Positions 28,725 through 44,850 of a stretch of 64,000 nt of DNA are shown in pieces. Origin of the DNA: Oscillospiraceae bacterium Zagget12 (lineage in GTDB: Bacteria; Bacillota; Clostridia; UBA1381). Under the pieces are notes generated by a model. That model saw nothing but the letters and a program-made list of their open reading frames with translations, was not told where the DNA came from and did not search any database. Each line of letters starts with the position of its first letter. Within the stretch, counting starts at the first letter, position 1. The position numbers and the translations under genes were made by a program. Location: NCBI GenBank assembly GCA_001941225.1, contig MSHM01000032.1:1-64000 (forward strand), read 5' to 3'.

Positions 28725-28732
28725 TATGGAGG

Positions 28733-28877
28733 ATAACGTGAAAAACAAGCGGCGCAGCTCACTATTATTCGGAGCTTGAAGTATAAATATACGACTGCGC
28801 TCCTCATAACAGTAATCTGCTTGCTTCTTTTCCACGTTAAAATTTATGCCGCCGAAAGGCGGCGGAATGGAGATTAA
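28733..28877 (+). repeat. Dispersed ~144-bp element, copy 1, with terminal inverted repeats, GNRA hairpin and RBS
   Basis: Gapless alignment (~83% identity by hand) to the reverse complement of 44675-44818; aacgtgaaaaacaagc...gcttgcttcttttccacgtt ends; gccgcc-GAAA-ggcggc hairpin. Confidence 0.9.
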
Positions 28878-28881
28878 AATA

Positions 28882-30423
28882 ATGGAATTGATAAAAGAAA
28901 ACATAACGGTCAATCAAGTAAATTGCAAAGGCAGCACGCAGGTGCTTGTGGACGAGGATATAATAGTTCCCGATATAAAACCCGATATATTGAAAATATT
29001 GCAGGTTGACACCGCGTCCTGTATTACAGGCAAGGAAATTACGAACGGCAGAGCGGTCATAAACGGCAGAGCGGACTTGAAAATACTGTACATACCCGAC
29101 AGCGACAGGGAAAAAATCAAGAGCATAATAACCTCCTTTGACTTTACTCAAAATGTGGACAGTCAGAAAATCTCGGGCGATATGACGCCCGTTGTGATGT
29201 CCAATGTTGACAGAGTTGAATTTTCCTTGATAAACAGCCGTAAGCTGCGCGTTAAAATCATAGTCGGAATCGATTATGAAATAATCGCGGAAAAGAATGT
29301 TGAAATAGCGGTCGAAACCGCGGACTGCGATGATGCCGAGGTACTGCGTGAAAGCGTAAAGCTGCAAAACTGCGTCGGACTGTCCGAAACCGAATTTTCA
29401 ATCAAGGACAGCATAGAGGTGCCGAACGGTCAAAGCTCCGTAGGTGAAATTTTGAAGATAGATACAAAAATATCCGATTGCGAATATAAAACCGTCACCG
29501 GTAAAATAGTCGCAAAGGGAGCCGCCAATGTATGCGCGCTCTATACCGATGATGATTGTAAAATTCGCTTTATGGAGTCGGAAATACCGTTTACCGAGGT
29601 TTTCGATTGCGACGATGCCGGAGATGAAACGATATGCGATATTGATTACAGCATATCCGATGTGAAGTATGAGGTGGCGGAGGACAGCGACGGTGACAGA
29701 AGAATAGTGTATTTGGATATTGCGGTCGCGGCGCAGATTAAGGCGACGGAAAATGTGTCGGTGGATATGATTTGCGATTGCTACGAGCCATTTATGAAAA
29801 CCGATATTTTTAAGGAGGATATAGAGCTTGAGGAAATAGTGTCGCGTCCGTCTACGCAGAACAGCATACGCGAAACGGTGGAAATAAACGCGAGCGCTCC
29901 GGGAGTGTCGGGCGTATATGACGTTATAACAAGACCGTACATAACAAAAGCTCAGCTCCAACGCGGCAAGCTCCTTGCCGAGGGCAAAATAGAGGCATAT
30001 ATATTGTATCTGACCGACAGTAATGAAAGTCCCGTATACAGTATGAAAAAGGAGCTGCCGTTCAGCTATATGCTTGACAGCGAATGCGGCGATGATGATT
30101 TAATTCCGGAAATTAAGGCGGAGGTTAAGCATACGGCATGTAATTTGAATGTGGCGGGTGAGATTGAAATAAGATGTATTCTCTCTCTCAGCGCGAACAT
30201 AATCCGCAGGAGAAAAATAGAGCTTATAAGCGACGTTATAACGGAAAAGCCGGAGAATGAGGATAAAAAGGGCATTGTGATTTACTTCGCGCAAAAGGGC
30301 GATAATCTTTGGGATATTTCAAAGCGCTACGCGGTACCCAGGGAGGAAATACTTAAATTCAACAATATGACCGAAACCGACAAGATTGAAGTAGGCTCCA
30401 GATTGTTTATTCCGGGAATGTAA
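28882..30423 (+). CDS. DUF3794 (SPOCS)/LysM-domain protein, SipL-like spore morphogenesis protein
   Basis: Repeated SPOCS-type blocks (QVLVDEDIIVPDIKPDILKILQV) and C-terminal LysM IYFAQKGDNLWDISKRYAVPREEILKFNNM...GSRLFIPGM; start placed at ATG 28882. Confidence 0.87.
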   Translation: MELIKENITVNQVNCKGSTQVLVDEDIIVPDIKPDILKILQVDTASCITGKEITNGRAVINGRADLKILYIPDSDREKIKSIITSFDFTQNVDSQKISGDMTPVVMSNVDRVEFSLINSRKLRVKIIVGIDYEIIAEKNVEIAVETADCDDAEVLRESVKLQNCVGLSETEFSIKDSIEVPNGQSSVGEILKIDTKISDCEYKTVTGKIVAKGAANVCALYTDDDCKIRFMESEIPFTEVFDCDDAGDETICDIDYSISDVKYEVAEDSDGDRRIVYLDIAVAAQIKATENVSVDMICDCYEPFMKTDIFKEDIELEEIVSRPSTQNSIRETVEINASAPGVSGVYDVITRPYITKAQLQRGKLLAEGKIEAYILYLTDSNESPVYSMKKELPFSYMLDSECGDDDLIPEIKAEVKHTACNLNVAGEIEIRCILSLSANIIRRRKIELISDVITEKPENEDKKGIVIYFAQKGDNLWDISKRYAVPREEILKFNNMTETDKIEVGSRLFIPGM

Positions 30424-44038: not shown

Positions 44039-44069
44039 AAAACAGCCGTCACGCGGTAACGGCTGTTTT
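44039..44069. terminator. Bidirectional rho-independent terminator
   Basis: aaaacagccgt-cacgcggta-acggctgtttt between convergent genes. Confidence 0.85.
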
Positions 44070-44672
44070 GTTATTTTTTGCTTTTTTCTTGTGTTTTTTG
44101 CATTTTAAATGGGTATCGGGCGTTAAATGACCTATTTCTATCTCAAAACACTCCTCAAGCTCGTCAAGACCGTCAATGCTGTAATCCTCAAGTATGCGAA
44201 CAAGCACCTCGGCGCAGGCGTAAGCATCGTCGTATGCTTGATGATGGTGGAAGTGTATTCCGAGAGCCTCACAAAGATTATTGAGCTTGTGGCTTTTAAG
44301 CTCGGGATATGCTTTTTGCGACAGCTTAACGGTGCATAAATAGTCGAAGGTGGGAAACGGTATATTAAAATGCTCCAGCGTCGCACAAAGCGCGCCCACG
44401 TCGAAATCGGCATTATGCGCCACAACCGTTTTGTTTTCAAGATACGGCTTTATCATGGGCCAATATTCGGCAAAGGTAGGCTTGTCGATAACCATATTAG
44501 GCGTTATGCCGTGTATGCGTATATTATAATCATTAAACTCAAACGGTTCGGGTTTTATCAGAATTTCTATCCTGTCGGTTACAATATTATTTTCCACCAC
44601 ACACAGTCCAAGACTGCAAACGCTTGTATAATTTGAGGTGGCTGTTTCAAAGTCTATAGCAACAAAATCCAT
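44049..44672 (-). CDS. 3'-5' exonuclease (DnaQ/PolC epsilon-like DEDDh)
   Basis: MDFVAIDFETATSNYTSVCSLGLCVV, VVAHNADFDVGALCATL, HHHQAYDDAYACAEVLV; start placed at 44672. Confidence 0.9.
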   Translation of the reverse strand: MDFVAIDFETATSNYTSVCSLGLCVVENNIVTDRIEILIKPEPFEFNDYNIRIHGITPNMVIDKPTFAEYWPMIKPYLENKTVVAHNADFDVGALCATLEHFNIPFPTFDYLCTVKLSQKAYPELKSHKLNNLCEALGIHFHHHQAYDDAYACAEVLVRILEDYSIDGLDELEECFEIEIGHLTPDTHLKCKKHKKKAKNNKTAVTA

Positions 44673-44674
44673 AT

Positions 44675-44818
44675 TAATCTCCATTCTGCCGCCTTGCGGC
44701 AGCACAAAACATAACGTGGAAAAGAAACAAGCGGATTAGTATTATGAGGAGTGTAGTCGTATGCGTATACGTCAAGCTCCGAATAATGCTGAGATGCGCA
44801 GTTTATTTTTCGCGTTAT
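44675..44818 (-). repeat. Dispersed ~144-bp element, copy 2 (inverted relative to copy 1)
   Basis: Reverse complement aligns gaplessly with 28733-28877; gctgcc-GCAA-ggcggc hairpin and GGAG RBS retained. Confidence 0.9.
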
Positions 44819-44821
44819 CTT

Positions 44822-44850
44822 ATTATACAACTTTTTTTGCACATTGTCAA
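44822..44850 (-). promoter_or_regulatory. Promoter immediately upstream of element copy 2
   Basis: Minus strand TTGACA-17 nt-TATAAT; transcription would begin at or near the element's 5' end. Confidence 0.85.

Follow-up and report, generated by a model that had tools for sequence, protein, structure and literature searches.

Two repeated leaders in the window

The window, i.e. the whole stretch of 64,000 nucleotides that was analysed, contains two copies of a short repeated unit, one directly upstream of a sipL gene and the other, on the opposite strand, directly upstream of a gene for an RNase_T-type 3'-5' exonuclease (Table 1). The unit is about 141 bp long and consists of an imperfect palindrome of about 106 bp, here called the core, followed by a tail of about 35 bp with a GC hairpin and a Shine-Dalgarno (SD) sequence. 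The core has the form TAACGTGAAAAATAAGC...GCTTGCTTCTTTTCCACGTTA and is followed by TGATTTGTGCCGCCnnnnGGCGGCGGAATGGAGATTA and then by the start codon, the right end of the element being ...GGCGGCGGAATGGAGATT. A second subfamily, common in the related genome G012, reads AAGTCTGAATAA...TTTCAGCCTT and has a different tail, in which an SD is also present and which ends in ...GTGAAAGGAnTTAATG. The ends of the core are complementary, but their sequence varies between subfamilies, unlike that of classical terminal inverted repeats, and the unit runs about 35 bp past the right arm.

The initial annotation of this DNA, made from the sequence alone, had described the two copies as a portable element with pairing ends. 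The alignment of the copies gave 83% identity over 148 bases (28733-28881 on the plus strand against 44671-44818 on the minus strand), which matches the earlier estimate. The proposed pairing of the ends agrees with the predicted fold of copy 1 (-50 kcal/mol, z -4.2, equalled or bettered by none of 200 shuffles); that of copy 2 is weaker (-38.6, z -1.7, equalled or bettered by 13 of 200). Also confirmed were the gtat-NNNN-atac tip, the GC hairpin and a GGAG ahead of the start codon.

Table 1. Features of the two copies and of their neighbouring genes (positions in the window)
Feature	Position	Strand	Basis
Copy 1, whole inserted unit (141 bp; AACGTG...GGAGATT)	28735..28875	+	Empty sipL site of G006 (GGAGGAT^AAAATAATG) compared with the filled site
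Copy 1 core, imperfect palindrome TAACGTG...CACGTTA	28734..28839	+	Match to covariance model R1 (124.8 bits); consensus pairs
Copy 1 GC hairpin of the RBS module (GCCGCC-GAAA-GGCGGC)	28848..28863	+	Fold; pattern recurs in the genome and in relatives
Copy 1 element-carried SD (GGAG)	28869..28872	+	Within the inserted unit; start codon at 28882
Native SD of sipL (GGAGG), upstream of the insertion	28728..28732	+	Empty G006 ortholog (L076) has GGAGGAT, 7 nt ahead of its start codon
sipL (SPOCS domains and LysM), gene behind copy 1	28882..30423	+	Pfam SipL, E 3e-43; LysM, E 3.5e-9
Copy 2 core	44712..44817	-	R1 match (105.2 bits)
Copy 2 GC hairpin (GCTGCC-GCAA-GGCGGC)	44688..44703	-	Fold; alignment
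Copy 2 SD (GGAG on the minus strand); start codon 44672-44670	44679..44682	-	Sequence; element-free orthologs read TATAAT..GGTTAGGAGAGATAGTATGG
Conserved TTGACA-17-TATAAT, putative exonuclease promoter, 4 nt upstream of copy 2	44822..44850	-	Present in element-free orthologs too
RNase_T-type 3'-5' exonuclease gene behind copy 2	44049..44672	-	Pfam RNase_T, E 3e-29

Copies, filled sites and empty sites in related genomes

The further copies envisaged by the initial annotation were found: more than 20 additional matches to the repeat exist in the same genome, where about 25 matches lie below E = 1e-5, several of them being parts of one copy. This genome (G000) carries about 20-35 full or partial copies, and several relatives carry more. 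A covariance model of the core, built from 34 sequences with 31 pairs over about 106 bases, matched 35 of 61 related genomes, with up to 64 scored candidates per genome and 34-64 or more matches per genome in several relatives, and there were almost no matches in the other families of the order. Within the genus the distribution is patchy, some species having dozens of copies and others none. Outside the order, at least 12 copies lie on different contigs of G303, a genome that belongs to the same class but to another family; this suggests horizontal spread. Orthologous sipL loci occur in gut MAG records labelled Oscillospiraceae, Clostridia or Lachnospiraceae. No match to the element was obtained in the phage and plasmid collections, nor in viral contigs scanned with one exact 22-mer only. 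The patchy presence in the genus, the high copy numbers and the copies in G303 fit mobility, and the unit is short, non-coding and multi-copy as MITEs are, its 141 bp being too small for a transposase gene.

Comparison of orthologous sites showed insertion. In G006, whose SipL protein is 97% identical, the sipL leader reads tgtGGAGGATAAAATAATG, and in the window it is tatGGAGGATAACGTG...GGAGATTAAAATAATG. Thus all 141 bp of the unit, its SD included, lie between the native SD and the start codon. The short sipL leader is also found in other genomes of the genus, and in most of the genus the site is empty; in G012 this place is taken by a second-subfamily member, and in G014 by an apparently eroded element. 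By a concatenated search with fragments of the downstream genes, orthologous places were found for 24 further loci, and about 15 clean filled/empty pairs were obtained between G000 and the near-identical species G006, including argF, argH and the genes of L008, L010, L011, L175, L176, L183, L186, L189, L200 and L203. In nearly all clean pairs the joint lies after a T, 2-4 nt before the start codon, for example AAGGAGTAAT^ACTATG at argH, GGAGGATT^AAAATG at L010 and CGGAGGAAT^TATATG at L008. No clear target-site duplication was seen at these joints, which are compatible with a duplication of T, of TA or with none, the T or TA there being ambiguous.

At the exonuclease gene the element is common to this genome and G006 (L058), while at least nine other genomes of the genus lack it and have TTGACA-17-TATAAT followed directly by a native GGTTAGGAGAGATAGTATGG or a close variant. 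The filled allele retains the promoter but not the native SD; its mRNA would be expected to begin at the start of the element. Eroded copies were also found, in which the RBS module is intact with a core remnant of 37-44 nt (L176-L178), and at L025 and L026 the RBS module stands alone, without a core.

The precise empty sites in a near-identical species, and the RBS inside the inserted unit, bear out the portability of the element. The initial annotation had offered two readings, a structured 5' UTR and a small mobile element with an RBS of its own; since whole units, SD included, have been inserted at empty sites, the element is mobile and not a fixed leader.

Other repeats were observed within and around these copies. 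Further hairpins are nested in the core at L175, L182, L199 and L203, and tandem copies occur at L173, L194, L211, L235 and L252. Two recurring core inserts, GGTAAGTTGC..GCAACTTAGCCC..GGGCTTGACTGC..GCAGTCAA and TTCAGCACCTTTTGCC..GGTGCGAA (L012/L175, L199, L200, L203, L182, L197), are themselves built of small hairpins, like palindromes inserted into palindromes. At L173 and L193-L196, tandem arrays of core relatives (TAACGYnCAATA...TCTTGAACGTTA, with the 5-bp spacer ttaca) lie directly behind the stop codon of one gene, and their copy numbers differ between G000 and G006. Another dispersed repeat, CAATAAGGGGTTTTGCCCCGTCATTCAACGTTTCAGTGG..., lies in or beside the element at L013/L019 (G000:C11, about 2070-2200), L098 and L099; it is also present upstream of sipL in G021, and a similar one in G023.

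A second repeated leader, found in other families and in G050, differs in its hairpin, TCTTATCATTnCTTGCC[nnnn], but ends in the RBS module of the present element. Its loci (L314, L326, L327, L328, L321, L304/L046, L044/L057) are centred near a GGCGGCGGAATGGAG site, and in G050 GGCGGCGGAANGGAG occurs at 15 sites, as against one core match. The loop and the module contain complementary stretches (CCATACG/CGTATGG, CCCTGC/GCAGGG), which hints at a putative covarying pseudoknot next to the SD; cmscan of the loci L042 and L046 gave no credible match. At L329, L330 and L331, in several f2 genomes, the same module occurs at a conserved site with a complementary upstream loop (CCATGC/GCATGG), in leaders between an rpmG-like gene (ribosomal protein L33) and the next gene.

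Pairing, orientation and position of the element

To be kept by RNA folding, a stem is expected to favour G-U pairs, which a DNA palindrome is not. In the 93 core sequences compared, 95.3% of the cells pair and 29 of the 31 pairs show double changes, the paired fraction being inflated because the sequences were aligned to the structure; all shuffled and slid controls fell far short of these values. Among the 2857 cells of the core pairs, G-U occurred 62 times and A-C 70 times, whereas a small control of 7 distinct tRNAs from the same loci gave 15 G-U and 0 A-C in 147 cells. For the small GC hairpin the anchored count was 5 G-U against 7 A-C in 132 cells. A looser hairpin search (GNRA in 13 of 68; G-U 24, A-C 4) rewarded G-U, and the anchored count was used instead. 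The G-U pair that the initial annotation had pointed out in the second copy does not generalise, G-U showing no excess over A-C in either hairpin, and the GNRA tetraloop it described is present in only 10 of 22 anchored modules, the others having gcag, gcat, taaa or loops of other lengths. Strong covariation without an excess of G-U points to a constraint that acts on the DNA inverted repeat and not on RNA folding. Such a constraint may come from one protein that reads both arms or from template switching, which can homogenise the arms of a palindrome (PMC8604942); the conserved internal mismatches argue against homogenisation alone.

The annotation's remark that no known riboswitch was recognisable held in an Rfam scan, in which no match to the element reached the gathering score and none up to E = 1 was credible, and an Rfam riboswitch or leader was rejected. 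Copies elsewhere exist, the covariation exceeds that of every shuffle and matches to a described family are absent, and on none of these counts is the initial proposal overturned. A conserved set of target genes across species, by which a riboswitch may be known, was not found. A structured cis-regulatory RNA, riboswitch-like or a protein-bound leader, that governs many genes and is retained for its function would account for the orientation and the position, as the element is always on the sense strand of an mRNA leader and stands before many genes per genome; the paired cells, the double changes and the conserved internal loops are also as such an RNA would have them. We nevertheless consider it improbable, given the wobble counts in the core and in the tRNAs, the unrelated downstream genes, the empty sites in a sister species, the several genomes of the same genus without any copy, and the eroded copies that have lost the core and kept the RBS. 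The structured-RNA half of the initial proposal is weakened by the lack of G-U excess, by the unconserved GNRA loop and by downstream genes that are mutually unrelated and differ between species. Strong covariation alone is no proof of a structured RNA, and the ratio of G-U to A-C is worth checking.

Orientation and position were counted from model hits in G000, G006, G012 and G014 and samples from other genomes, with simple ORF calls as genes. Of 127 matches, a start codon with an SD was found within 80 nt on the sense side only in 93 and on the antisense side only in 1; 32 of the 127, mostly tandem copies, short stretches or 3' ends, were unscorable. Where the upstream ORF could be traced, it terminates inside the element, among its first 20 bases, in 51 of 102 cases, chiefly at the TAA or TGA of TAACGTGA. 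Directly behind 39 of 40 recognisable RBS modules there is an open start codon within 20 nt, and the spacing from GGAG to the start is 6-8 nt for most modules. Random sense insertion in intergenic DNA would give about 6% (649 of 5591 sites, halved for orientation), taking the roughly 5.6 kb of intergenic DNA in the window and the 649 sites 2-12 nt before a start.

These results are best explained, in our opinion, by a non-autonomous, MITE-like family of mobile DNA which carries an RBS and inserts in sense orientation at translation starts, and we hold this to be probable; a point against the MITE reading is that MITEs do not typically insert in the sense direction only and precisely in front of start codons. 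As the filled/empty pairs show, the unit goes in a few bases before the ATG and in most cases downstream of the native SD. The native SD is thereby displaced about 145 nt upstream, and the SD of the element would take over, while the TAA and TGA in the left end would close the upstream reading frame. The gene would remain translatable, and the insertion would be tolerated. Later, the core would erode and the RBS tail, now needed by the gene, would stay, as the eroded copies suggest. The palindrome is probably kept complementary in the DNA by recombinase handling or by template-switch homogenisation of its arms.

The same mobile element could also insert at random, with selection alone leaving it in sense orientation before start codons. 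Between an SD and an ATG it would survive only with a working SD of its own, and the SD-to-start spacing of the survivors, mostly 6-8 nt, is in agreement with this. Under random insertion, however, harmless places (far upstream, at 3' ends, in convergent intergenic regions or antisense) should fill up, and whole-genome surveys found almost none there; the pneumococcal RUP, BOX and SPRITE elements are reported to be enriched between convergent genes (PMC3049150). In addition, the sipL leader was hit twice separately, by different subfamilies in different species (G000 and G012). We regard selection alone as rather unlikely, and the scarcity of copies where they would do no harm speaks for targeting of the start region rather than selection for position. 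We tentatively propose, with less than even confidence, that the insertion machinery recognises the SD/ATG context in an orientation-specific manner and swaps the RBS of the gene for its own. If true, this would be a new insertion specificity, which could rewire translation initiation at many genes per genome.

A route through RNA, in which the element, as RNA, is inserted into an mRNA near the SD and then reverse-transcribed, would explain the sense-only insertion; the strict sense orientation in transcribed leaders and the lack of a clear target-site duplication are compatible with it. It appears very improbable to us, because the pairing has no wobble pattern of a functional RNA fold, and we know of no precedent at this element size.

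The short gap between RBS and start codon is a place that small mobile elements would normally be expected to avoid. The mobile DNA family described here repeatedly enters this gap with its own RBS and stops, so that the gene need not be silenced, and an insertion may uncouple a gene from its operon neighbour. The filled and empty sites of closely related bacteria form a natural series in which genes can be compared before and after RBS replacement, and they raise the question of how a transposition system could find start codons.

Candidate mobilising enzymes and known small elements

Imperfect DNA hairpins and oriented insertion, as in the element here, are features of the palindromes derived from IS200/IS605 and of REP/REPIN sequences; in contrast to these, no fixed flanking tetra- or pentanucleotide was seen at the element, and Y1 transposases do not follow its copy number. 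No Y1 transposase was found in the high-copy genomes G006, G012, G042 and G043 (assemblies 81-98% complete), and an association with Y1 was rejected. An association with IS110 was likewise rejected, since a DEDD transposase is above the cut-off in the copy-free G004 and G007 and absent from the high-copy G043; incomplete assemblies limit how these absences of Y1 and IS110 are to be read. The fragmented assemblies showed no autonomous copy in the form of a long element whose matching ends enclose an ORF. Integron attC sites were set aside, because the inserted unit carries no gene.

In size, hairpins and copy number the family is comparable to MITEs and to the Correia/NEMIS, ERIC and RUP/BOX elements (PMC2229807, PMC2649163, PMC3049150, PMC10969869), and no description of an RBS-carrying MITE, or of RBS replacement by small bacterial mobile elements, was found in the open-access literature. 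The Correia/NEMIS elements (CREE) of Neisseria are alike in their length of 105-155 bp, palindromic ends, high copy number, location near genes, mobility by strain comparison and transcribed hairpin (PMC2229807, PMC2649163); a long hairpin is predicted for copy 1. They differ in that the sources describe promoters and IHF and RNase III sites, and neither a carried SD nor insertion between SD and ATG was found there. The enterobacterial ERIC is also a small mobile hairpin that lies inside operons and has an orientation-dependent effect on the mRNA, but its effect is reported to be exerted through an RNase E site, and an RBS of its own or insertion at start codons is not described there (PMC2229807). 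The pneumococcal elements resemble the present family in that RUP is about 107 bp long with more than 100 copies and in their nested and clustered insertions, whereas RUP, BOX and SPRITE are over-represented between convergent genes and the element here lies sense-only before start codons (PMC3049150). The closest positional parallel is given by the TAACTGA repeats of Beggiatoaceae, which are mostly forward, lie directly before start codons, overlap the position of the SD and contain stop codons; unlike the element described here, they are 7-nt direct repeats with no predicted RNA structure, and they appear to replace the SD rather than to bring one (PMC4679880).
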